Source: Terriglobia bacterium
GTDB taxonomy: Bacteria > Acidobacteriota > Terriglobia > Terriglobales > Acidobacteriaceae
DNA: 64,000 nt
NCBI GenBank assembly: GCA_020073465.1
Contig: JAIQFC010000030.1
Location: 1-64,000 of the forward strand
Direction of reading: 5' to 3'
Positions 42 to 59,522 of this stretch are shown in pieces (position 1 is the stretch's first letter; each line of letters opens with the position of its first letter). Under the pieces are notes generated by a model. It was given only the letters and a program-made list of their open reading frames with translations, ran no database searches and was not told where the DNA came from. A program made the position numbers and the translations under genes.

Positions 42-200
42 GCCTTTGGAAAATGGCAACTGCCGGAACTCAAACTGCACCACTACCAAACGTTGCCAGC
101 TGCCAAGGCTGTGCAATGTACCCTCGACGCAATGCAACCGGGGCGGCATCATTTACAATCCAAGTAATCGTTCCCAGACAATTTGTGTTCGCGAGGAAAT

Positions 201-896
201 ATGAAAAAGGTTCTGGTGGTGTTTGTGTTGGTGGTATCGCTCTGTTCCCTTTCCCTGGCAGGGGATGAATCGACAAAGGAAACCAAGGCGGCGGATCGAG
301 CCCAAGCGGCGGCCGATGTGTTGAACGAGATTCAGGGAGCGCCGGACAGTGGTATCCCGCAAGAAGTGTTGGGCTCGGCAGAGTGCGTGGCGGTTGTGCC
401 GTCGATGCTCAAGGGAGGATTTGTGTTTGGCGCGAAATACGGGCGCGGGCTCGCAAGTTGTCGTACCCCGAAGGGCTGGAGCGCGCCTGCGTTCTTTACC
501 GTGAAGGGCGGCAGCTTTGGGCTGCAGATCGGCGGGCAAGCGGTCGACCTGGTGATGTTGATCATGAATGAAGACGGAATGAAGCATCTGCTTTCGAGCA
601 AGTTCGCCCTGGGAGCCGATGCCTCCGTCGCGGCTGGTCCCGTAGGCCGTCATGCTGAAGGCGATACGGACTGGAAGATGCGGGCGCAGGTGCTTACGTA
701 CTCGCGCGCGCGCGGCGTATTTGCCGGCCTCACCCTGAATGGCGCGCAAATCAAGCAGGACAAGGACAGCACGCGCGAGTTCTACGGACGCATGGTGTCG
801 TTCCCGGCGTCGCTCAAGGGAGAGGTCGAGGCTCCCGCAGCGGCGAATGTCTTCTTGACCACGCTGGCCAAGTGGGCGCAGGAAGCGGCGAAGTAA
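201..896 (+). CDS. Exported SYLF (Ysc84-like) domain protein
   Basis: The 231-residue product starts with a signal peptide (MKKVLVVFVLVV, likely cleaved after LSLAG). The rest matches the lipid-binding SYLF/Ysc84 family: an Ala-rich helix, then SAECVAVVPSMLKGGFVFGA and a Gly-rich beta region with GGSFGLQIGGQAVDLVML. Eukaryotic members bind phosphoinositides; bacterial ones are exported and of unknown role. I chose the ATG at 201 because the TTG at 183 lies upstream of the signal peptide and GAGGAAAT sits just before the ATG. It stands alone, followed directly by heptamer repeats. Confidence 0.85.
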   Translation: MKKVLVVFVLVVSLCSLSLAGDESTKETKAADRAQAAADVLNEIQGAPDSGIPQEVLGSAECVAVVPSMLKGGFVFGAKYGRGLASCRTPKGWSAPAFFTVKGGSFGLQIGGQAVDLVMLIMNEDGMKHLLSSKFALGADASVAAGPVGRHAEGDTDWKMRAQVLTYSRARGVFAGLTLNGAQIKQDKDSTREFYGRMVSFPASLKGEVEAPAAANVFLTTLAKWAQEAAK

Positions 897-897
897 G

Positions 898-1070
898 ATC
901 GGGCTTCGGGCTTCGGCTATCGGGCTTCAGCCAAGGCGGGCTTCGGCCAAACCAGCATTGCATTTCCGAAAACTCTCTAGACCTACGCGGGTTCCGCCTC
1001 TGTCGATCTGGTGAGCAGGGAAGTGAGTTTGATGAGCCGAAGCCCGAAGCCTGAGGCCCGAAGCCCGGTT
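898..1070. repeat. Period-7 inverted repeat pair (GGGCTTC type)
   Basis: The left arm (898-950) is made of GGGCTTC-like heptamers such as GGGCTTCGGGCTTC. The right arm (1034-1070) carries the complementary GCCCGAA units. The two arms could form a long imperfect hairpin around an 80-bp loop. The array begins immediately after the stop codon of the SYLF gene. Confidence 0.75.
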
Positions 1071-1117: not shown

Positions 1118-2017
1118 ATGCGTCAGCGACTTGAGTACGCGGCAGCCTGGCCGTTCATCAAATTGCTGGGGATTTTGCCGCGTCCAATGGCGCGCGCGGT
1201 GGGCATCAGCCTCGCCTGGTTTTTCTATCTCCTGCATTTTCGGTTGCGCCGGGTTGGCATGCGCAATCTCGCCATGGTGTTTCCAGAGAAAAGCAAGGCC
1301 GAGCACGCGCGAATTCTGCGCGGCGAATTTGCTTCCCTGGGGCGGCAGCTCGCGGAGTTGTGTCAATTTCCTCGTTACACGCGGGAGAACGTGGACGAGG
1401 TTGTGGTGTATGACGGGTTCGAGAATTACGAGCAGGCGCGCGCGCGCGGCAAGGGAGTGCTGTTCCTGACGGCACATTTCGGGGCATGGGAGCTTTCGGC
1501 ATTCATGCATTCGTTGCACCGGCATTGGATGCACATCGTGATGCGGCCCATGGACAATGTCTATCTGAACCGGATGATTCTCGAGTACCGCACGATGCAT
1601 GGGAATAAAGCGGTCGACAAAGATGATTTCGTGCGCGGGCTGCTCTCGGCGATGAAGGCGGGCGAGGTGGTGGGAATACTGATGGACACGAATATGACGC
1701 CGCCGCAGGGCGTGTTCGTGGACTTCTTCGGCATCCCGGCGTGCACGGCGAGCGGGCTGGCGCGCATCGCGCTGCGGACGGATGCGGCGGTGATTCCGGG
1801 ATTCACGATCTGGGATAAGGCGCTGGGGAAATACCGGCTAAGGTTCGATCCGGCGGTGGAGTTGGTTCGGACTGGAGACCTTGAGGCGGACATCGTGGCC
1901 AACACGCAGAAGTTCACGAAGGTCATCGAGGGATATGTACGGAAGTATCCGGAGCAATGGTTGTGGGTGCACCGGCGGTGGAAGACGCGGCCGGAGGGTG
2001 AGAAGGGGCTGTATTGA
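1118..2017 (+). CDS. LpxL/HtrB-family lysophospholipid acyltransferase
   Basis: The 299-residue product belongs to the lipid A acyltransferase family, which moves an acyl chain onto lipid A precursors or related lipids at the inner membrane. The catalytic H-x4-E motif is visible as HFGAWE (H120, E125). An N-terminal hydrophobic segment (GISLAWFFYLLHF) fits membrane attachment. Later family blocks include GILMDTNMTPPQGVFVDFFG and PEQWLWVHRRWKTRP near the C terminus. Length is typical. No other lipid A genes are adjacent, so the exact acceptor cannot be read from context. Confidence 0.88.
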   Translation: MRQRLEYAAAWPFIKLLGILPRPMARAVGISLAWFFYLLHFRLRRVGMRNLAMVFPEKSKAEHARILRGEFASLGRQLAELCQFPRYTRENVDEVVVYDGFENYEQARARGKGVLFLTAHFGAWELSAFMHSLHRHWMHIVMRPMDNVYLNRMILEYRTMHGNKAVDKDDFVRGLLSAMKAGEVVGILMDTNMTPPQGVFVDFFGIPACTASGLARIALRTDAAVIPGFTIWDKALGKYRLRFDPAVELVRTGDLEADIVANTQKFTKVIEGYVRKYPEQWLWVHRRWKTRPEGEKGLY

Positions 2018-2042: not shown

Positions 2043-2084
2043 GGCTCTCGGGCCTTCAGACCTCAGGCCTTAGATTCTGCCTCT
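2043..2084. repeat. Degenerate period-7 array, single arm
   Basis: Six heptamers can be laid out as GGCTCTC, GGGCCTT, CAGACCT, CAGGCCT, TAGATTC, TGCCTCT. It lies 25 bp after the acyltransferase stop. It is weaker than the other arrays and has no clear second arm. Confidence 0.5.
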
Positions 2085-2105
2085 CATGGGAGGGGCGCAT
2101 GTTCA

Positions 2106-2190
2106 GCGTCCGAAGGACTCCTGACAATAGCCCGGCGTTTCAGCGCCGGGAACGTGCCGCCATCGCAATGGCATCCCGTAGGGATGCCTG
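2106..2190. repeat. Left REP cluster of the dead RAYT element
   Basis: Three palindromes lie in a row: GTCCGAAGGAC (2108-2118), CCCGGCG...CGCCGGG (2131-2150) and GCATCCCGTAGGGATGC (2171-2187). The whole block is repeated in inverted order at 2662-2745, so the transposase remnant sits between inverted arms. REP elements flanking RAYT genes are well known; this arrangement fits. Confidence 0.8.
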
Positions 2191-2193
2191 AAC

Positions 2194-2641
2194 CTATCCC
2201 CAGATGTGCTTAGGATCATATTCCACACCGTTCTTCTTGAGGAACGCCAGGAACTCTTCTTCAAAGTCCCGCTTGCGGTGGTGTTCGGGCTGACGCTTGA
2301 TGTAGGCGATCGTGTCGCTCTTCTGCGAAATTCCTACGGTGAAGGCGCCATATCCCTCCTGCCAGGCAAAGTCGGTCTTGAACTTCTCGTTCATCCAGTG
2401 CGACGACGCCCCCTTTCACGAGTTGCATCGCCTTCGCCAAGGGCAAGGTTGCCGGTAGTGATAACAGGATGTGCACGTGCTTCTCAGTGCCGCCTACGAT
2501 GAGCGCTTTGAATCCGTTCTTGCGCGCTATACCGCCCATGAAGGCCCAGAGATCGGGTTGCACTTCTGCCGGGATGAGGTTGCGGCGTTGCTTGGTAGAG
2601 AAGACGCAGTGGATGAGTTCGGAAACCTAGGTGTGAGACAC
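2194..2641 (-). pseudogene. Inactivated REP-associated tyrosine transposase (Y1/IS200-like)
   Basis: Read on the minus strand from a GTG at 2641, the protein begins VSHT, meets a TAG stop (2627-2629) where the family usually has Tyr, and continues VSELIHCVFSTKQRRNLIP. The HUH motif is HVHILL and the catalytic Tyr lies in AYIKRQPEHHRK. A second lesion is one extra base in a C5 run (2409-2413): removing one C joins MQLVKG to ASSHWMNEKFKTDFAWQEGY. Both halves are otherwise well preserved, so decay looks recent. RAYT proteins mobilise REP palindromes; this copy cannot make a full product unless the lesions are sequencing errors. Confidence 0.88.
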
Positions 2642-2661
2642 GCGAGGCTCCGAAGTAGTTT

Positions 2662-2745
2662 CAGCCGTCCCTACGGGACGGGATCTTCCAACTCCAGATT
2701 ACCCGGCGTTGAAACGCCGGGCTATGATAGGCGTCCTTCGGACGC
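2662..2745. repeat. Right REP cluster of the dead RAYT element
   Basis: This is the inverted counterpart of 2106-2190, with palindromes CCGTCCCTACGGGACGG (2665-2681), CCCGGCG...CGCCGGG (2702-2721) and GTCCTTCGGAC (2733-2743). Loop bases differ but the stem order mirrors the left cluster. Confidence 0.8.
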
Positions 2746-2854
2746 TTTCGCTTTCCCAGAATGGATCGTGGGTGCACCGACGGTGGAGCGTCGTCTTTAC
2801 TCTGGGCTGCCCAAGAATCCACAGCACTGATCAACTTCCGTATTCACCTTCCGG

Positions 2855-16145: not shown

Positions 16146-16187
16146 ACCGCCGGCCTGAAGAACCTGTCAGGCTGGCGGTTTTGTTTT
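16146..16187 (+). terminator. Rho-independent terminator after pilQ
   Basis: ACCGCCGGCCTGA pairs with TCAGGCTGGCGGT around a short loop and is followed by TTTGTTTTT. It ends the pil operon. Confidence 0.88.
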
Positions 16188-16200
16188 TGAGGAGCAAGTT

Positions 16201-16336
16201 CTCAATTCTTGGTCTTGGGTGTTGGGTTTTAGGTCTTAGGACTTCGACAATTGCTCCACGGGGAGGTGCCCAAGACCTAAGACCCAAGACCTGCCACCTG
16301 CGAACTGCGAACTGAGAACTGAGAACTGAGAACTGC
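16201..16336. repeat. Period-7 inverted repeat pair (CCAAGAC / CTGAGAA type)
   Basis: The left arm (16201-16243) reads as heptamers CTTGGGT, GTTGGGT, TTTAGGT, CTTAGGA. The right arm (16268-16336) has CCAAGAC, CTAAGAC, CCAAGAC, then the unit drifts to CTGCGAA and CTGAGAA while the 7-bp phase is kept. It lies between the pilQ terminator and the aminopeptidase gene. Confidence 0.8.
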
Positions 16337-18064: not shown

Positions 18065-18090
18065 AGGCGCGCACTGAGCGCGCCTTTTTG
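18065..18090 (+). terminator. Hairpin terminator between accB and accC
   Basis: AGGCGCGC pairs with GCGCGCCT and is followed by TTTTTG. It lies just after the accB stop, so accC may be only partly co-transcribed or need its own promoter. Confidence 0.75.
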
Positions 18091-18126
18091 TGTCTGGATC
18101 GTTGGGCTGCGTTTCTAGCGAACCAT

Positions 18127-18170
18127 CCGGGAGCGAGACGCTCCCGGGACAGCCGGCGGGACGCCGGCGC
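18127..18170. repeat. Palindrome doublet before accC
   Basis: CCGGGAGC/GCTCCCGG (18127-18147) and GCCGGC/GCCGGC (18152-18168) lie 17 bases before the accC start. The second shares GGGACAGCCGG with 14016-14033. Confidence 0.6.
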
Positions 18171-18186
18171 TACTTTTTCAAAACAC

Positions 18187-19542
18187 ATGTTTAAGAAGAT
18201 TCTGGTTGCCAATCGTGGAGAGATCGCCTTGCGCGTGATTTGCGCGTGCAAAGAACTGGGTGTGCGCACAGTCGCAATCTACAGCGAGGCGGACCGGAAT
18301 TCCCTTCCCGTGAAGTTTGCCGATGAAGCCATTTGCATTGGCCCGCCACAGTTGGCGCAAAGCTACCTGAACATTCCCGCCGTCATCAGCGCCGCCGAAA
18401 TTGCGAATGTGGAAGCCGTGCATCCCGGATACGGTTTGCTGGCCGAGAACGCCAACTTCGCGGAAGTGTGTGAGACCAGCGGTATCAAGTTCATCGGGCC
18501 TCGGCCGGAAGTCACGCGGTTGATGGGCGAGAAGGAGAAGGCCCGGGCGGCAATGAAACAGGCCGGTGTGCCCATTCTGCCCGGGTCGGACGGAATCATC
18601 GCATCCGACGGTGAGGCAATCGGGTGGGCCCGGCAGGTGGGTTTTCCCGTCATCGTGAAGGCCTCGGCGGGCGGTGGTGGCCGCGGCATGCGCATTGTAC
18701 GCAACGAAGAGGAACTCCCCGGCCTGTTCAAGGCCGCTCAAGCAGAGGCTGCCGGAGCATTCGGGAACGGCGATCTCTACATGGAAAAGTACGTCGAGCA
18801 TCCGCGCCACATCGAGTTTCAAGTGCTGGCGGACGAGCACGGCAATGTGGTGAGTTTGGGCGAGCGCGAGTGTTCGATCCAGCGGCGGCACCAGAAGTTA
18901 CTGGAGGAATCGCCGTCCACACAGGTCACCCCCGAATTACGCGACCAGATCGGAGCGGTCTTGTGCAAGTCGCTTGCCGCTATCGGATACACCAACGCGG
19001 GAACGATTGAGTTCCTGATGGATCAGGACCGGAGGCTGCACTTCATCGAGATGAATACGCGTATTCAGGTGGAGCATCCAGTCACAGAGATGGTCACCGA
19101 CGTGGACCTGGTGAAGAGCCAGATCATGATCGCCGCCGGGGCGAACATGAGTGAGGTGCTGCTGGGCCCCGTTGTTCACCGTGGGCATTCGATTGAGTGC
19201 CGCATCAACGCGGAGCATCCTGAGAAATTCACCCCATCGGCGGGAAAGATCACGGCATTTCATCCGCCCGGTGGTACGGGAGTGCGAGTCGACACTGCGG
19301 CCTATGCCGAGGGCGTGATTCCGCCCTACTACGACTCGCTGATCGCCAAGCTGATCGTGCGCGGCAAGGACCGGAACGAAGCCATCTCGCGGATGTCGCG
19401 GGCGCTGGAGATGTTCATTGTGGAGGGCGTATACACCACAATTCCGCTGCACCGCAAGATTCTCGCGGATCCGGACTTCCGCGCGGGGAAGATCGACACA
19501 GGATTCATTGAACGGTTTCTGGCGAAGAACGGCAAAGAGTAG
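18187..19542 (+). CDS. accC: Biotin carboxylase subunit of acetyl-CoA carboxylase
   Basis: The 451-residue enzyme carboxylates biotin on AccB using ATP and bicarbonate. Domain order is the biotin carboxylase N domain ([17 protein letters not shown]), the ATP-grasp domain with the glycine loop [14 protein letters not shown], the catalytic stretch [15 protein letters not shown], and the C domain ([12 protein letters not shown]). I use the ATG at 18187, where homology starts; the open frame upstream runs through the terminator and palindromes. The stop codon lies within the first heptamer of a period-7 array. Confidence 0.96.
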
Positions 19543-19564
19543 CGAGTGCCGAGTACCGAGTTGC
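19537..19564. repeat. Period-7 array (GAGTNCC type) over the accC stop
   Basis: Four heptamers, GAGTAGC, GAGTGCC, GAGTACC, GAGTTGC. The TAG in the first unit is the accC stop codon. No second arm is seen. Confidence 0.65.
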
Positions 19565-31863: not shown

Positions 31864-31946
31864 GTGGCCAGTAGTCAGTGGGCAGTGGCCAGTGAACCCG
31901 GAGCGTGATCTTGCTCTTACTGGCCACCAGTCACTAGCCACTGCTG
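31864..31946. repeat. Period-7 inverted repeat pair (CCACTGG type), copy 1
   Basis: One arm (31864-31898) reads GTGGCCA, GTAGTCA, GTGGGCA, GTGGCCA. The other (31919-31946) reads ACTGGCC, ACCAGTC, ACTAGCC, ACTGCTG. It ends directly at the stop codon of the MFS gene. Confidence 0.8.
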
Positions 31947-33203
31947 CTATTCCACGGCGGTGGCTTCCTCTACCGCAGTGGCTGTTCCGACCGGCCAGCT
32001 CGCGGCCACGAACGACACACCGTAGACACAGGCCAGAATTGCGAACGCGGCGACCAGGCTGATTTTGTGCGCGACCGCCCCAGCGGCAACGGCGAGCACG
32101 AGTTGCAGGAAGGTTCCTCCAAAGTAGAACGCGTTCTGTACTCGGCCCATCAGATGCTGCGGGACCATCTCCATCAGGCTGGTATTCATGGCGACACCGC
32201 CAACGCCACGGGCCGAGCCCATGAGGAGATAGAAAGTAATCGCCAGGAACAGGAATCGCGAGATGGGCGCGGAGACCACGCATATCGCGAGCATCGCCAT
32301 GGAGAACGCCACCGAGCGGCGGCCTCCTATCCGGGCAATCACCCTGGGAGCGTATAGCGCGCTCAAGAAGGCTCCGGTGCCCCATCCCGCATTCAGCCAG
32401 CCATAGCCGACAGCGCCCGCGTGGAAGACGCGCTCGCTCAACGATGGAGTAACGACAACGCCTGTGATCATCGCACCCAGGAAGAGAGCCCAACTGATCC
32501 CGAGCAGCACGACGGCGCGATGATCGCGCAGAAAATGCAGTCCCTCCCGCATTTCACGCCAGAAGCACTCAAACTGAGACTCGGCGGCAAGAATGTCAGC
32601 GCGCAGTTCTTGCGGACGCAGCACGACGTGACGTCCCTTGCGCACGGCAAAATAGCAGAAGAACGAGACGACATAAGTGGAGACATCAATCAGCAGCACA
32701 CCACCGAGGCCGATGTGGTTGTACATGAATCCGACAATCGCGCCGGCGATGAGCCAGCCGCCTTGTACGCCCGCCAGCAAAAACGTATTGGATTGCAGGA
32801 ACGCTCCCTCCGGCGTCAGTTCCTGGATCAGCGCGGTAATCGTCGGCCAAAACATCCAGAATCCCGCCGCGACCAGGGTGTTCATCAGGTAGAGCTGCCA
32901 GACTTGTACCTTGTGCCGGAAGGCCAACATCGCGACCACCACGATGATGACACCGCGCACTGCGTCGAGCATCATGACGAGGCGCCGGCGGTCTTCCCGG
33001 TCAATGATGACCCCGGTAAAGGGCAGCATGAGCATGGCAGGGACGGTCTGCAGCACGGCGAAGGTGCCCAGCGCCATTTCCGAGTGTGTGGCTTGCAAGA
33101 TGTACCAGGCTACGGCGGCCGAGTTCATCCCGCTCCCCAACATGGAAATCACGTTGGCGGCAAAAACGTAGCGCAGCGCACGCTGGCCGAGGATCGAACG
33201 CAT
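31947..33203 (-). CDS. MFS transporter (MFS_3/EntS-like)
   Basis: The 418-residue carrier has about twelve helices and resembles the MFS_3 group (enterobactin exporter EntS and related drug exporters). It starts RYVFAANVISMLGSGMNSAA, has GVIIDREDRRRLVMMLDAVR as the A-like loop between TM2 and TM3, and PRVIARIGGRRSVAFSMAML in the equivalent second-half position. Substrate unknown. The gene ends at a heptamer hairpin before fabI. Nothing nearby suggests a siderophore locus. Confidence 0.88.
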   Translation of the reverse strand: MRSILGQRALRYVFAANVISMLGSGMNSAAVAWYILQATHSEMALGTFAVLQTVPAMLMLPFTGVIIDREDRRRLVMMLDAVRGVIIVVVAMLAFRHKVQVWQLYLMNTLVAAGFWMFWPTITALIQELTPEGAFLQSNTFLLAGVQGGWLIAGAIVGFMYNHIGLGGVLLIDVSTYVVSFFCYFAVRKGRHVVLRPQELRADILAAESQFECFWREMREGLHFLRDHRAVVLLGISWALFLGAMITGVVVTPSLSERVFHAGAVGYGWLNAGWGTGAFLSALYAPRVIARIGGRRSVAFSMAMLAICVVSAPISRFLFLAITFYLLMGSARGVGGVAMNTSLMEMVPQHLMGRVQNAFYFGGTFLQLVLAVAAGAVAHKISLVAAFAILACVYGVSFVAASWPVGTATAVEEATAVE

Positions 33204-33265: not shown

Positions 33266-33320
33266 TCGATCGCCGATTTCCGATTGCCGATTGGAAATTC
33301 GGCGCCCGCCCTATCGGCAA
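33266..33320. repeat. Period-7 array (CCGATTG type)
   Basis: Five heptamers (TCGATCG, CCGATTT, CCGATTG, CCGATTG, GAAATTC) occupy 33266-33300. A shorter complementary piece (CTATCGGCAATCC) follows. It lies in the divergent gap between the MFS gene and the TPR gene; no gene is seen in 33204-33468. Confidence 0.65.
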
Positions 33321-33468
33321 TCCAACCCACCTTACTGCGTGTCTCAGTGCCTCGGTGGTGGAATAGCCCGGCCTGTGATTCCCGGCCTTGCGCCACGCCT
33401 CGTTCAGCGCTACGATTCGCCTGCTGCTGGAAAGTGAATCGTATTTTCACGCATGCCGGAGGTGGCCT

Positions 33469-37375: not shown

Positions 37376-37478
37376 ACAGTGGTCAGTGGTCAGTGGCCAG
37401 TGACCAGTCCTGCTGTCGTGAAAGAAGTCAGCAAACTAGATGCGTCGTTGACTGGCCACTGATCACTGGCCACTAGCC
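37376..37478. repeat. Period-7 inverted repeat pair (CCACTGG type), copy 2
   Basis: One arm (37376-37410) has five units from ACAGTGG to CCAGTCC. The other (37451-37478) has ACTGGCC, ACTGATC, ACTGGCC, ACTAGCC. The last unit contains the stop codon (37473-37475) of the response regulator. Confidence 0.82.
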
Positions 37479-38879
37479 GGGCACTTCTTCCTTGCCCGCG
37501 GCCGCATCTGCGGCCGCGCTGCCGTATTCCTTCAGTTTATTATGAAGTGTTTTCAGGCTTATGCCGAGAATTTCAGCGGCCCGCGTTTTGTTGTTGCTGG
37601 TAGCCTCCAGCGTCTTGAGAATCAGCATCTTCTCTGCTTCTTCGACGGTTGTGCCAACTCCCAGCCGTACTGCGTCTGGATCATTGGCCGCCGTCCGCAG
37701 CGGCGCCTGACCGAAGCCCGGAGGCAGATGCTTGGTCTCGATCATGCCCCCATCGCAGACAATCACCGCGCGTTCGAGCGTGTTGCGCAGTTCACGGACA
37801 TTCCCCGGCCAGGAGTAGCCGTTGAACACATTGAGCACGGCTTCGCTGACGGCCGCCACCTTCCGCGAGTGCTTGGCGCTCATCTCGGCCAGCAGTAACT
37901 GCACCAGGTCTGCAATGTCTTCCTTGTGCTCGCGGAGCGGTGGCATGTGAATATTGAAAACGTTCAGACGATAGTAGAGGTCACTGCGCAACTCTCCGCG
38001 GGCCACAGCTTCGTCCGGAACCTTATTGGTCGCCGCCAGCACCCGCACGTCGACCGACGTCTCTACTTTGCTTCCCAGCCGCCGCAGCTTGCGGTCTTCG
38101 AGCACGCGGAGCAGCTTGGCCTGAGTGGCGATCGGCATCTCCCCGATCTCATCCAGAAGAATGGTCCCGCCTTCGGCTAGTTCAAAGCAGCCCGTGCGCC
38201 TCTCGAGGGCCCCCGTGAAGGCGCCCTTCTCATGGCCGAAAACCTCACTTTCAATCAGAGTCTCGGGAATCGCGGCGCAGTTGATGGCCACGAACGGCCG
38301 GTCCCGGCGCGGACTCAGATCGTGGATCGTCCGCGCAACCAGTTCCTTGCCCGTTCCGCTTGCGCCCGTAATCAGCACCGATGCCGTGCTCGGCGCCACC
38401 ATCTCGATGAGCCGGAAAATCTCCTGCATCTTCCGTGAGGAACCATTCAATCGTCCCAGAGATCCCGAATCTCGCAGCTTCCGGCGTGTGACTTCCAGTT
38501 CCACGCGAGTTCCGAGCAGCGACGAAGCATTCGATAGAATCGTGCGCAGACGGTTGGTGTCGATGGGTTTGGTGATGTAGTCGTACGCGCCCATGCGCAT
38601 GGCCTGTACCGCACTGTCGATCGTGCCCTGGGCCGTGACCAGCACAACCGCCATGGTTTGCGTTTGTTCGGCCAAATGCCCCAGCAGGTCGATGCCGCCC
38701 ATCCTGGGCATCTTGAGGTCGGTCACCACAATCGACGGCGTCCACTGCCGGGCTCTCTCCAGGCCTTCAACTCCATCCCGGGCGGTTTCGACCCGGAATC
38801 CCCAGGAGGAAACCAATTCGGCGAGGCCAGTGCGTTCGTTCTCCTCATCCTCAACAATCAATACCTTTTCTTGGCTCAT
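37473..38879 (-). CDS. Sigma-54-dependent response regulator, NtrC family (1)
   Basis: This 468-residue activator has a receiver domain (acceptor Asp in IVVTDLKMPRMGG, Thr in LVTAQGT, Lys in ITKPIDTNRL), an AAA+ domain with Walker A ITGASGTGKELVAR and the sigma-54 contact loop GHEKGAFTGALERRTG, Walker B TILLDEIGEMP, and a Fis-type HTH (AAEILGISLKTLHNKLKEYG). It should activate sigma-54 promoters when phosphorylated by the downstream kinase. The ATG at 38879 is chosen as it starts right at the receiver; the open frame continues to 38915. Targets are unknown. Confidence 0.94.
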   Translation of the reverse strand: MSQEKVLIVEDEENERTGLAELVSSWGFRVETARDGVEGLERARQWTPSIVVTDLKMPRMGGIDLLGHLAEQTQTMAVVLVTAQGTIDSAVQAMRMGAYDYITKPIDTNRLRTILSNASSLLGTRVELEVTRRKLRDSGSLGRLNGSSRKMQEIFRLIEMVAPSTASVLITGASGTGKELVARTIHDLSPRRDRPFVAINCAAIPETLIESEVFGHEKGAFTGALERRTGCFELAEGGTILLDEIGEMPIATQAKLLRVLEDRKLRRLGSKVETSVDVRVLAATNKVPDEAVARGELRSDLYYRLNVFNIHMPPLREHKEDIADLVQLLLAEMSAKHSRKVAAVSEAVLNVFNGYSWPGNVRELRNTLERAVIVCDGGMIETKHLPPGFGQAPLRTAANDPDAVRLGVGTTVEEAEKMLILKTLEATSNNKTRAAEILGISLKTLHNKLKEYGSAAADAAAGKEEVPG

Positions 38880-39267
38880 TTCGTTCTCATGTCCTACATC
38901 AGATTCGCCCAGCATTTTGCCGTTCGAGGACGACTCCTGAGCACCAGCCCTTGGACGGAATCACATCGAATCACCACGATACGCGGCCTTCTTCCAACCG
39001 GGCAAGGTCTGGGCTGGCCGGAAAACGGGAAGAGCAGCAGTGATCCCTTCCTGAGACACCAACATTCAATTTCAAATTGAGACACGTTCGCATGCTCACA
39101 GCGTGTTCGCCCAGGCGAGGTTTACGGTCTCCATCTCGCTTTAAGCTGGAGCATGCTGTAGAATTTCGGGTTCCCACGAGCAGAACTCCGCGCAGCAGAG
39201 AAACGCCATTTTTCCAACGGCTCTTGGGACCATTGTTTCAGAAAGCGTACAGAATCTGGAGGATTCC
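38880..39267. other. Divergent intergenic region
   Basis: This 388-bp gap between the divergent regulator and OmpA genes shows no gene. A TAGAAT hexamer lies at 39159-39164, but without a partner -35. I see no match to the sigma-54 GG-N10-GC pattern with flanking consensus. Confidence 0.5.
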
Positions 39268-56612: not shown

Positions 56613-57851
56613 CTAGTGAATAGTCTTCGTCTTCCGCGACATATAGTCCATCAGCAAGTACTGGCCGAGCGTGTAAGGAGTGGTGAAGTAAGCTTTGCCA
56701 CGGCACATCTCCGTGACTTTCTGCACGAACTGCACCAAACCATAGTCAGATGCCAGCATGAAGGTGTTGATGAGCACTCCGGCGCGCTTGCACTTGGAGA
56801 CTTCTTCCAACGTTTGGCTCACCACCAGCGGATCCAGCCCAAAGGCATTCTTGTAGATGCGGCCATCTTCGAGCGTCAGGGCAGACGGCTTACCATCGGT
56901 GATCATGACGATCTGCTTCATGTCTTTTCTTTGCCGCTGCAGAATCCGCTGTGCCAGCCGCAGGCCTTCCCGCGTGTTGGTGTAATAAGGGCCGACCTTG
57001 ACGCGCGCGAGTTGTGACAGCGGAACCTCCTCGGCGGAGTCGTGGAAGAGCACCAGCGAGAGCGAGTCGCCGGGATATTGCGTGCGGATCAGATGCGACA
57101 ACGCCATCGCCACTTTCTTCGCCGGAGTGAACCGGTCTTCGCCGTAGAGAATCATCGAGTGCGAGCAGTCAAGCATGAGCACGGTTGCGCACGATGACTG
57201 GTACTCGCACTGATGCACCTGCAGGTCGGAATACTCGATATTCAGCGGCAATGTGAGTCCTTCACGCTGGATCGCGCTTGAAAGCGTGGCCGTGATGTCG
57301 AGATTGAGCGTATCTCCAAACTCGTACGTCTTTGCCGACCCGCTGGTTTCGATGCCGGTGGCAAGGTCGCGCGTGTCGTGACGTCCGAAGCTGGACTTGC
57401 CCAGCGAGCCCAGCAGGTTGCGCAGCGACTTAAAGCCGAGGAAGTCCAGGCTCTTATCGGTGATTTCAAACTTGGCTTGCTGCTGGTTCTCGCCGATTTG
57501 TCCGCCAACGCCCGATTGACGCGCCCGATCGGGCGGCTCATCGATCGAGATGTAGTCTTCCTGCTGCATGCGCTCGATGAGCTCTTCGATCAGTTCGTCG
57601 AGGTGCCCTTCCATCTGCATCTGCTCGATGCGTTCCCGCATATCATCGTCGAAAAGATCGCCATTCATCAGCGCCTGCTCGATGGCGCGCTTGAGTTCGT
57701 CGAGCGTGTGCTCGCCGTCAGGCATCTCGTGCCACATGTAATCGTTGAAGCCGCTCTGCAGCAGGTAGTCGGAGAGCGCTCCGAGCAGGTCCTCCATGCT
57801 CATCTCGCTGGCGGGGTCAGGAACGTATTTGGAGTAGCGGATGCGCTTCAT
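56613..57851 (-). CDS. VWA-domain protein paired with the AAA ATPase
   Basis: The 412-residue protein has an acidic helical N-terminal half and a C-terminal von Willebrand A domain. The metal-binding site is visible: [19 protein letters not shown] (D-x-S-x-S), a Thr in the middle region and [11 protein letters not shown]. Such proteins pair with MoxR/ChlI-like AAA ATPases to load metals or remodel partners. This pair resembles the mycobacterial Rv0958-Rv0959 type, whose role is not known. The ATG at 57849-57851 lacks a clear Shine-Dalgarno because a heptamer hairpin fills the gap upstream. Confidence 0.85.
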
Positions 57852-57855
57852 GGAA

Positions 57856-57956
57856 ATCAGTGGCCAGTGGCTAGTGATCAGTGGTCAGTAAAACCATGGA
57901 AGCCGCGGCGCTTCAACTGGCCACTGGTCACTGATCACTGGCCACTGTTCAGTTAA
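57856..57956. repeat. Period-7 inverted repeat pair (CCACTGG type), copy 3
   Basis: One arm (57856-57890) is ATCAGTG, GCCAGTG, GCTAGTG, ATCAGTG, GTCAGTA. The other (57915-57949) is AACTGGC, CACTGGT, CACTGAT, CACTGGC, CACTGTT. Five units each, with a 24-bp loop. The second arm reaches the stop codon of the AAA gene. Confidence 0.85.
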
Positions 57957-59445
57957 ACTGTCTCCTCTGCCGGTATGGCCGATCCTCAGACTCAAACGAC
58001 TTCTCCCGCTGAGGTTCCGGCTTCTTCTCTCCTGCTTTGAAGATGCGCTCTTCCGTCCGGCCGATGCGCTTGTGCGCGTGCAAGCCTTCGAGAACGAACT
58101 CGGCCGCAGAAACCTGCCGCTCCGGACTGTCTTTGAGCGTGACCCCGAGCGGCCCAAGCTTGTCAGTCAGTCCTTGAATCTCCTTCAGGTTTTCCAGTGC
58201 CTCGATCGCCGCGATCGAGTCCGAGAGCTGAATCTCGCCGCCCAGGTCGAACCATTGCACGATCTGCTGCACGTTCGCGCCGGTGAAGTACTCATCGTAG
58301 GTCTTGGCGATCGCGGTGCGAATAAGTTCGCGTCCCACGTGATCGGCACCCTTCATCTCGCCTTCGTATTCCAGTTCAAGCTTGCCGGTGATCGCGGGCA
58401 GCGCTGCGTAAACGTCGCTGATACGCGGCACGACGAGCTTCTCGTCATTGCGGATGGCACGACGCTCGGCGTTAGAGATCACGTTTTCCATCGCGCTGAT
58501 CGGCAGGCGCTGGCTGACGCCAGATCGCTTGTCGATTTTCTTGTCTTCACGAGCTGCGAACGCGATGCGCTCGATGACCTCCTGCACATACTTGGGCAAC
58601 TGCAGACGGTGCCCGTTGCGATGCGTCCACGCTTCCTGCGCGGTGATCGTGATTCCCTCTTCCACTGTTGCTGGATAGTGCGTGCGAATCTCGGAGCCAA
58701 TGCGGTCTTTCAGCGGAGTGATGATCTTCCCGCGCGCCGTGTAATCTTCCGGGTTGGCGCTGAAAACGAGCGCAACGTCGAGGGGCAGGCGAATGGGGTA
58801 TCCCTTAATCTGCACGTCGCCTTCCTGCATGATGTTGAACAGTCCCACCTGAATCTTTCCCGCAAGATCGGGCAGTTCGTTGATGGCAAAGATGCCGCGA
58901 TTGGCGCGAGGCAGCAGGCCGTAGTGAACGGTGAGTTCGCTGCCGAGTTCGTGGCCGCCGCGCGCGGCTTTGATAGGGTCGATGTCGCCGATCAAGTCGG
59001 CGATGGTCACGTCGGGCGTCGCGAGCTTTTCCACATAGCGCTCATCGGGAGTGAGATAGGCGATGGGTGCATTGTCGCCGTGATGAATCACTTCCTCGCG
59101 ACAGCGGCGGCAGATGGGCGCGTAGGGATTGTCGTGGATCTCGCACCCGGCCAGGTAGGGCATATGCGGATCGAGCAGCGTCGTAAGGGCGCGCAGGATG
59201 CGGCTTTTCGCCTGTCCGCGCAGTCCCAGCAGAATGAAGTTATGCCGCGAGAGGATGGCGTTGACGATCTGGGGAACGACCGTATCCTCATAGCCGACGA
59301 TGCCGGGGAATACCGGGGCGTCTCCGTGTTCGCGCAACCGCGCAGAAAGATTCTCGCGGAGTTCGTCCTTCACGCGCCGGATTTGCAAACGCTCTTCAGT
59401 GAAAGAACTGTGACGCAGTTCGCCAAGTGTGCGCGGAAGACTCAT
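57949..59445 (-). CDS. ChlI/MoxR-like AAA ATPase
   Basis: The 498-residue ATPase resembles magnesium-chelatase I-like proteins of the Rv0958 type. It starts MSLPRTLGELRHSSF and has VKDELRENLSARL, a Walker A of the form GLRGQAKSRIL (Ala-Lys-Ser), Walker B GIFAINELPDLAGK and sensor VFSANPEDYTARG. A possible zinc site lies in CEIHDNPYAPICRRC, about 25 residues after Walker A. It is the first gene of the AAA-VWA-GNAT/methyltransferase unit. Mg-chelatase function is unlikely without bch/chl genes. Confidence 0.87.
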   Translation of the reverse strand: MSLPRTLGELRHSSFTEERLQIRRVKDELRENLSARLREHGDAPVFPGIVGYEDTVVPQIVNAILSRHNFILLGLRGQAKSRILRALTTLLDPHMPYLAGCEIHDNPYAPICRRCREEVIHHGDNAPIAYLTPDERYVEKLATPDVTIADLIGDIDPIKAARGGHELGSELTVHYGLLPRANRGIFAINELPDLAGKIQVGLFNIMQEGDVQIKGYPIRLPLDVALVFSANPEDYTARGKIITPLKDRIGSEIRTHYPATVEEGITITAQEAWTHRNGHRLQLPKYVQEVIERIAFAAREDKKIDKRSGVSQRLPISAMENVISNAERRAIRNDEKLVVPRISDVYAALPAITGKLELEYEGEMKGADHVGRELIRTAIAKTYDEYFTGANVQQIVQWFDLGGEIQLSDSIAAIEALENLKEIQGLTDKLGPLGVTLKDSPERQVSAAEFVLEGLHAHKRIGRTEERIFKAGEKKPEPQREKSFESEDRPYRQRRQFN

Positions 59446-59522
59446 GAGGACAGAACCCCCAGGGCAAATACTTCGCCTGATTATACGCGCGTTCACGCGA
59501 GCGGGTTCGGCTTTACGTTACG

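Follow-up and report, generated by a model that had tools for sequence, protein, structure and literature searches.

A 64,000-nucleotide stretch of a Terriglobia bacterium genome (assembly GCA_020073465.1, contig JAIQFC010000030.1, positions 1-64,000; the whole stretch is called the window below) carries at 57856-57956, between two genes on the minus strand, a hairpin whose two inverted arms are tandem arrays of a 7-nt unit. When this flagged junction was followed through the genus, it was observed that the slot outlives the sequence in it: the hairpin is kept in most orthologs that could be read, its heptamer differs between species, and the two arms change together. We consider such elements to be post-stop hairpins of heptamer arrays, resembling repetitive extragenic palindromes (REPs) and maintained by a copying process at the DNA level, a reading that we hold with roughly even confidence. 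The host genus consists of uncultured soil bacteria, one member being Candidatus Sulfotelmatobacter sp. (Acidobacteriota, Terriglobales).

A kept hairpin slot with changing heptamers

The 3901 bases around the flagged site, used as a query, gave matches in 45/45 genus genomes, and the gap between the flanking genes was readable in 41. The first 30 loci were taken by BLAST rank, which favours gaps resembling that of the query; 12 more were then added, of which 11 were readable. Four of the 45 genomes fell outside the count: G020, G045, and G058, for which no flank match was listed, and G002, whose locus (L358) was unaligned. Under a strict ungapped rule, a period-7 hairpin was present in 26 of the 41 orthologs, and in none of the shuffled gaps. 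Fourteen orthologs failed the rule, several of them being degenerate arrays, and the remaining one (L046) had a different palindrome pair. By eye, which is a judgement and not a test, about 36 of the 41 had two recognisable heptamer arms. In L353 and L355, gaps of about 50 nt held only remnants or a mini-hairpin.

The families found at this one junction include CAGTGGY, GGGCTTC, TAGCTTC, CAGCTAT, GAGY-type, YAGGGRT, CAGTTCT, and GGTCGTT. For 30 species, the family labels (eight hand-made groups, one of them the palindrome) were placed on a tree of the flanking genes, obtained by a quick search in which 12 of the 27 inner branches were starred and 6 were under 80. The label required at least 16 changes. 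Permuted labels required 17.8, and 30 of 300 permutations gave 16 or fewer; hence, the label carries almost no phylogenetic signal. The arm pairing score for the 30 loci was 14.3 within species compared to 5.8 between species, a difference reached in 0 of 10,000 permutations. The initial annotation, made from the window alone, had proposed a process that conserves the period but not the sequence. That proposal holds strongly at the flagged junction and less so at three others.

Some loci depart from the usual arrangement. In L046, the palindrome pair is of the AGAGACGT..ACGTCTCT type and stands in place of the heptamer hairpin. In L350, L354, L356, and L357, GGTCGTT arms remain at the gene boundaries and the gap has grown to 201-489 nt; the second arm is not evident in L354 and is weak in L357.

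Among named Acidobacteria outside the genus, only L115 and L126 allow both genes to be read together. In these two, the same genes are separated by 9 and 29 nt with no array between them, so the hairpin at the flagged junction was probably gained within or near this genus.

At three other junctions of the window, named here by position, the same strict rule gave a period-7 hairpin in 12 of 37 (37 kb), 9 of 26 (31 kb), and 8 of 23 (16 kb) readable orthologs, the 31 and 16 kb loci being limited to the top BLAST matches. Of the four, the flagged site is thus the best kept and not a typical one. At the 37 kb site, 15 of the 37 gaps were 67 nt or shorter, all without a period-7 hairpin. At the 16 kb site, arrays of differing families stand before or after a conserved terminator-like stem. 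Four of the 31 kb orthologs (L261, L264, L272, and L284) carry an inverted intergenic array of a second kind (ACCACRGAGGCACGGAG), whose period was judged by eye to be about 8-9.

Excess of period 7

The initial annotation had listed eight intergenic sites with period-7 repeats. We scored identity at a given lag, with a threshold of 17/21 matches, and applied the same test at other lags. At lag 7 the window gave seven runs; lags 3 and 6 each gave a single one, and lags 4, 5, and 8-13 gave none. Six of the eight sites passed at lag 7 (898-1070, 16201-16336 with two runs, 31864-31946, 33266-33320, 37376-37478, and 57856-57956). The site at 19537-19564 was only weak, with a Tandem Repeats Finder score of 36, and that at 2043-2084 was called neither by the lag-7 test nor by Tandem Repeats Finder nor by the inverted-arm search. 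In the arms of the flagged site, lag identity was 0.73 at lag 7 and at most 0.28 at every other lag from 3 to 12. The heptamer had also been said to differ between sites; several families do occur, but 31864, 37376, and 57856 share one, CAGTGGY.

When the test was extended to 458,134 bases of this genome, the window among them, there were 38 runs at period 7, compared with 0, 0, 3, 4, 1, and 0 at periods 4, 5, 6, 8, 9, and 10. A Markov-shuffled copy of these bases gave no run at period 7. Multiples of 7 were likewise raised, as expected (19 runs at period 14 and 7 at period 21). Of the 38 runs, 36 lay mostly outside predicted genes and two were mostly coding, genes being called by a simple codon-score script with exact stops and approximate starts. 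A second sample of this genome (384 kb) was picked around CAGTGGY matches. Period 7 thus exceeds periods 5-9 in this genome, a comparison on which the annotation had staked its interpretation, and the arrays recur in related genomes, having been found in four genus members and in the orthologs of the flagged junction. The observation of period-7 intergenic repeats is real in this genome and is partly confirmed as first described; as 7-bp intergenic tandem units in excess over other periods, the arrays belong to the heptamer class of simple sequence repeats. Rfam gave no match above the gathering score in the window.

Hairpin anatomy, polarity, and unit grammar

Typically, an unrelated spacer is flanked by two inverted arms, each of about 25 bp, with the YRGNNNY-type arm first. 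Among 76 script-found hairpins, the median arm was 25 bp and the median spacer 35 bp. In four genus members, 66 of 117 arrays had an inverted partner within 250 bp (score of at least 12), compared to 1 of 150 random segments. The claim that most sites have two inverted arms is correct for six of the eight noted in the window (the arm at 33266 being only 13 nt), but as 51 of the 117 arrays are unpaired, it amounts genus-wide to a small majority.

The order of the arms, YRGNNNY first and its reverse complement second, was nearly fixed, at 37:1 in this genome and 14:3 in three other genus members. The same tendency was seen elsewhere, at 7:0 in cyanobacterial loci (p 0.016) and 9:1 in other loci (p 0.021); the ratio of 4:1 in Bacteroidota loci was not significant (p 0.38). 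YRGNNNY, a template drafted only after the units of these genomes had been inspected, fits 20 of 24 distinct units in this genome, where the letter-permuted null is 10.3, and 19 of 23 in three further members of the genus, where it is 9.0; in each case 0 of 500 permutations reached the observed value. In groups outside the genus, the grammar was not significant. The suggestion that the sequence is unconstrained hence fails within the genus, where the units fit the template far above chance.

The unit grammar (20/24 and 19/23) and the polarity (37:1 and 14:3) are what one would expect if the arrays were bound by a protein that recognises a YRG core at each 7-nt step in a fixed convergent arrangement, and one cold-shock protein per heptamer is discussed in PMC4679880 (this and the other papers given by PMC number are cited from the excerpts available). 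We regard such binding sites as quite unlikely: the template is post hoc and not significant outside the genus, and L046 has a different palindrome in the flagged slot. A G-quadruplex was considered as well. By reading, four runs of at least three G were not found across the families. The TAGCTTC, CAGTTCT, and CAGTGGY units of the flagged slot have no GGG run, and GGGCTTC and YAGGGRT have one; since this one orthologous slot also accepts families that lack GGG runs, a quadruplex cannot be what the families have in common.

The two arms also agreed in register. In the sampled hairpins, 42 of 55 lay above the unit-permutation mean (p 0.0001), and at the flagged site 16 of 22 did so (p 0.053). 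This agreement would fit arm-to-arm copying together with unit-wise homogenisation.

Position relative to stop codons

Period-7 hairpins were present in 56 of 414 tandem intergenic regions (60-900 bp), 9 of 128 convergent, and 5 of 144 divergent ones; these counts are three samples summed, one of them picked around CAGTGGY matches, and carry no test on the sum. Among the 56 hairpins between co-directional genes, 43 started no more than 10 nt from the upstream stop codon, and some overlap it, which bears out the remark that several sites abut or overlap the upstream stop and lies within the approximately 15 nt reported for some REPs. Random placement of the 56 gave a mean of 26.4 within 10 nt and a maximum of 37 in 2000 draws. 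The preference was retained where there was room to stand elsewhere: 13 of 19 hairpins were at the stop in gaps of at least 150 bp (null 4.7, maximum 13), and 11 of 17 with at least 40 nt of free room (null 3.2, maximum 9), with 0 of 17 at the predicted start. In gaps of 504 and 563 bp, the hairpin lies 4 and 5 nt past the stop. The hairpin at 16218-16291 is an exception, its first arm (16218..16240) lying about 92 nt past the upstream stop, beyond the terminator-like stem. The stop codons of array genes were TAG 19, TAA 17, and TGA 11, against 158, 109, and 147 for all tandem genes examined; we read the uneven stop phase (p 0.003) as a preferred linker length only.

Some candidate explanations of position were dropped, the choice or phase of the stop codon among them. 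A hairpin bridging stop to start codon fitted the flagged site; genome-wide, however, the arms anchor to the stop and not to the start (start side 19 of 56, null 25.1). An explanation by codon frame, with stop codons in all frames, was dropped by reading because CGGGCTT arrays have no stop codon on either strand. A deficit at convergent junctions (p 0.04 and 0.08 in two samples of this genome) is not claimed, because it was absent in three other genus members (6/43). An intrinsic terminator of the classic type is disfavoured, T runs being few: TTTT followed within 8 nt of the 3′ arm in 5 of 56 hairpins (background 2.4%), and the T content after that arm was slightly up (30% vs 22%), far from general.

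The stop anchoring is also what selection at the RNA level would produce, with an intercistronic stem after the stop protecting the upstream cistron or slowing ribosomes, only the fold mattering and the letters drifting. The covarying arms, the slot kept in most flagged-site orthologs, and the greater frequency of hairpins at gene 3′ ends in the untested sums above agree with it, and REPs up to 15 nt from stop codons are reported to stall ribosomes (PMC12306157). A stem selected as RNA should tolerate G-U pairs on the transcribed strand. No such excess was found, the stem mismatches in gene sense being 93 G-T and 106 A-C (p 0.4), and the orthologous junctions leaned the opposite way, with G-T fewer than A-C (36 vs 62, p 0.011); the window's own hairpins are present in both sets. 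Fast re-copying of the arms could hide such a signal. Selection for the fold alone leaves the fixed period and polarity unexplained; the two Acidobacteria outside the genus have the gene pair without an array, and the 15 short gaps at the 37 kb site have no period-7 hairpin. We therefore see selection on the RNA as possible but rather unlikely to be the main cause.

Spread of families and candidate enzymes

Within one genome, the spacers of the hairpins are unrelated: among 68 of the 76 hairpins, those with spacers of 15-130 nt, 0 of 1133 pairs exceeded the shuffled maximum. It follows that a hairpin is not copied whole, provided that spacers do not diverge at a much higher rate than arms. The same few families nevertheless recur at many sites of a genome, and the one at the flagged site leans to what is abundant in its genome. 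The four genomes with GGGCTTC at this site had 44, 42, 25, and 17 other genomic matches to it, and the other 26 genomes had a median of 0 and a highest count of 28 (one-sided p 0.0009); CAGTGGY behaves likewise (one-sided p 0.036). The reversed CAGTGGY is a valid control, with 7 matches in all vs 503, but the reversed GGGCTTC is a rotation of the same heptamer and hence no control. Across the 45 genomes, the counts of the two families correlate (rho 0.70, kinship ignored).

REPs have a conserved palindromic sequence and are associated with REP-associated tyrosine transposases (RAYTs), and REPINs (REP doublets forming hairpins) are inverted pairs around a spacer. A transposase of the RAYT/Y1 type that copies the whole hairpin around the genome, as a REPIN or a miniature inverted-repeat transposable element (MITE), would account for many dispersed copies per genome and for two inverted arms. 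Y1_Tnp is indeed abundant (18 matches in this genome), and its counts correlate weakly with those of GGGCTTC (rho 0.30, p 0.04) and CAGTGGY (rho 0.27, p 0.07). Yet the interiors are unrelated, unlike the shared interior between terminal inverted repeats of a MITE, and no whole unit including its spacer recurs at several loci as in a REPIN (0/1133 pairs). Nor are the arrays linked to Y1 genes: 2 lay within 700 bp of 20 Y1 loci (part of all matches, from five genomes), where 2.3 were expected. The window's Y1 match sits among ordinary REP-like palindromes and not heptamers. Copying of whole hairpins by such an enzyme is thus disfavoured, and we consider it very improbable.

It may be noted that this partial Y1 transposase (RAYT-like) match, at 2408-2614, covers profile positions 7-75 of 121 in an open frame of 121 aa, and that the flanking palindromes (GCCCGGCG...CGCCGGG; window 2100-2750) are unlike the heptamers.

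A telomerase-like or retron-type reverse transcriptase that writes heptamers was also considered, since a templated repeat-adding enzyme would give a strict step together with a changing sequence. RVT_1 (PF00078) had no match in this array-rich, 99.99% complete genome, nor in five further genomes that each have 10 or more CAGTGGY matches (among the six, one is only 61% complete). An RVT_1 reverse transcriptase as a general requirement is thereby refuted, and we can give an enzyme of this kind hardly any credence; the result bears on RVT_1 enzymes and does not extend to polymerases outside that family.

Proposed mechanism

In the copying process that we favour, units within an arm would be gained, lost, and homogenised in 7-nt steps by slippage or unequal copying. 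A strand that folds back could switch template, so that one arm is rewritten from the other, and short array tracts may now and then be copied between sites, as a result of which a site would tend to take the family common in its genome. The position after the stop codon would then be where hairpins are best tolerated or mildly useful, as with REPs that affect expression of the upstream gene.

Several observations weigh against this proposal. No copying event was seen directly, the comparison being one genome per species. Among spacer pairs at the flagged site, only 1 of 300 was clearly above the shuffled maximum (22 vs 18), so only one pair shows the heptamer changing while the spacer stays. 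The hairpin selection itself partly favours in-register similarity, and the unselected set is borderline (p 0.053). Genomes rich in CAGTGGY (51, 47, and 41 matches) or with 28 and 22 GGGCTTC matches nevertheless have another family at the flagged site. When arrays and not hairpins are counted, adjacency to the stop is weaker, with 8 of 28 within 10 nt in an unbiased sample and 17 of 34 in the second sample. Finally, a purely mutational process does not predict exact adjacency to the stop codon, and slippage alone does not yield a period of exactly 7.

It is also conceivable, although we think it unlikely, that some dedicated activity acting in trans, neither RVT_1 nor RAYT, writes YRGNNNY heptamers arm by arm directly after stop codons. 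It would set both period and polarity, and the three free letters would evolve as interchangeable families. The correlation between the counts of the two families (rho 0.70) and the convergent polarity shared across phyla are hints consistent with such an activity; the grammar, which is not significant outside the genus, counts against it. If true, heptamer repeats in different bacterial phyla would be traces of a single kind of machinery that writes repeats. Overall, the interpretation given in the initial annotation is partly supported.

Features of the window

The coordinates of the arrays and of the genes at the flagged junction are collected in Table 1. Near the 16 kb hairpin, at 16147-16183, the secretin gene is succeeded by a GC-rich stem and a run of T's (CCGCCGGCCTGAAGAACCTGTCAGGCTGGCGGTTTTG in the window), an arrangement conserved in the orthologs L290-L315; it is probably the terminator of that gene.

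Table 1. Heptamer arrays of the window and genes at the flagged junction
Feature	Positions	Strand	Unit or product	Pairing	Context
Flagged hairpin, arm 1	57858..57889		CAGTGGC CAGTGGC TAGTGAT CAGTGGT CAGT		6 nt from start codon of downstream gene (57849-57851, minus)
Flagged hairpin, arm 2 (inverted)	57916..57947			84% complementary over 32 nt; 26-nt spacer	1 nt from stop codon of upstream gene (57949-57951, minus)
Gene downstream of flagged hairpin	56613..57851	-	VWA-domain protein (PF13519)		
Gene upstream of flagged hairpin	57949..59496	-	515 aa; no Pfam match at E 0.001		
37 kb hairpin, arm 1	37378..37401		CAGTGGY		Hairpin fills gap between response-regulator and histidine-kinase genes
37 kb hairpin, arm 2	37451..37474			92% complementary; 49-nt spacer	Overlaps stop codon of sigma-54 response regulator gene 37473-38915 (-)
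31 kb hairpin, arm 1	31869..31893		CAGTGGY		Between MFS gene and SDR gene
31 kb hairpin, arm 2	31919..31943			72% complementary	3 nt from stop end of MFS gene 31947-33203 (-)
CGGGCTT-family hairpin, arm 1	900..931		CGGGCTT		Begins 3 nt past stop of gene 183-896 (+)
CGGGCTT-family hairpin, arm 2	1036..1067			81% complementary; 104-nt spacer	
16 kb hairpin, arm 1	16218..16240		TTAGGTC/TTGGGTC-like		
16 kb hairpin, arm 2	16269..16291			87% complementary	
Second-family array	16289..16335		CTGAGAA	Unpaired	Adjoins 16 kb hairpin
CGATTGC array	33267..33293		CGATTGC	Short partner arm 33310-33322 (13 nt)	Between predicted divergent genes
Weak GAGTACC array	19537..19561		GAGTACC		Spans stop codon of open reading frame 18088-19542 (+); Tandem Repeats Finder score 36 only
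Degenerate heptamer-like stretch	2043..2084				After gene 1118-2017 (+); seen by eye

Comparison with known systems

As a broad kind, heptamer intergenic repeats are already known; an excess of heptamer repeats in the genomes of many bacteria was documented as early as 2007 (as cited in PMC4692102). The closest likeness is to the short tandemly repeated repetitive sequences (STRRs) of Cyanobacteria, which are 7-bp intergenic units. The initial annotation had taken STRRs not to be inverted; on the contrary, they are reported to form hairpins, e.g., at hupS-hupL, for which a part in transcript stability or in translational coupling has been suggested (PMC2670836). By reading, the Nostoc csR1.3 sequence ccactgactactgac (PMC2408588) belongs to the same heptamer family as the flagged site. 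In cyanobacterial loci that had been selected with a heptamer pattern, pairing was found for 16 of the 75 intergenic arrays scored (threshold 13, not 12). The present arrays differ in phylum, in that paired arms are common, and in being anchored to stop codons; STRRs are named sequences of filamentous cyanobacteria, so that arrays of an Acidobacteriota genus share with them the broad kind only.

Inverted pairing has also been published elsewhere: two Xanthomonas genomes have 70 and 75 convergent inverted heptamer pairs (PMC4692102). The GGGAATC heptamers of Xanthomonas and GGGGAYT of Nostoc lie mostly between aligned ORFs (open reading frames), and the downstream ones mostly within 50 bp of the stop codon (PMC4692102). 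Unlike these, the arrays described here comprise many families, several without GGG runs, in one orthologous slot. TAACTGA of marine Beggiatoaceae is an intergenic heptamer, also found in Cyanobacteria and Bacteroidetes; its repeats are direct, with one inverted case, and most lie no more than several nt upstream of start codons (PMC4679880). Heptamers related to it are rare as repeats in the main genome. The REPs of E. coli are intergenic palindromic elements, some within 15 nt of stop codons (PMC12306157). In contrast to REPs, bacterial interspersed mosaic elements (BIMEs), and REPINs, the arms here are heptamer arrays, the spacers are unrelated, and Y1 genes are unlinked.

The pattern YAGTNNY is spread widely in named genomes: the matches listed (80 of at least 120 stretches) include Cyanobacteria, Bacteroidota, Chloroflexi, Planctomycetes, Acidobacteriota, Proteobacteria, and others. 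Away from these matches, Cyanobacteria loci gave counts of 62 at period 7 vs 5 and 4 at periods 8 and 9, and Bacteroidota loci 26 vs 2 and 5, figures that are not a rate since the genomes were chosen for having such repeats. In Acidobacteriota, 83 of 297 sampled genomes match YAGTNNY, very unevenly; the reversed control also matches many genomes because it is likewise a period-7 pattern. Within one Acidobacteriota family, G109 and G121 have 1261 and 650 matches and three genomes of another genus (G150, G176, and G216) have none, a contrast that reflects an extreme lineage-specific expansion.

In the excerpts available, the heptamer literature gives no settled function or cause. Among the open-licence papers listed for such repeats, judged by title and abstract opening, none dealt with heptamer turnover in a kept hairpin slot, which is not proof of absence. 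Three features are apparently new here: this turnover among orthologs, the anchoring to stop codons in many families, and spacers that are unrelated. A kept slot with a changing heptamer separates the conserved features (period, fold, polarity, and stop adjacency) from the word itself and argues against explanations bound to a particular motif, be it a quadruplex or a single binding site. The 45 genomes thus offer a ready comparative system for asking what makes the step of 7 and whether post-stop hairpins act.
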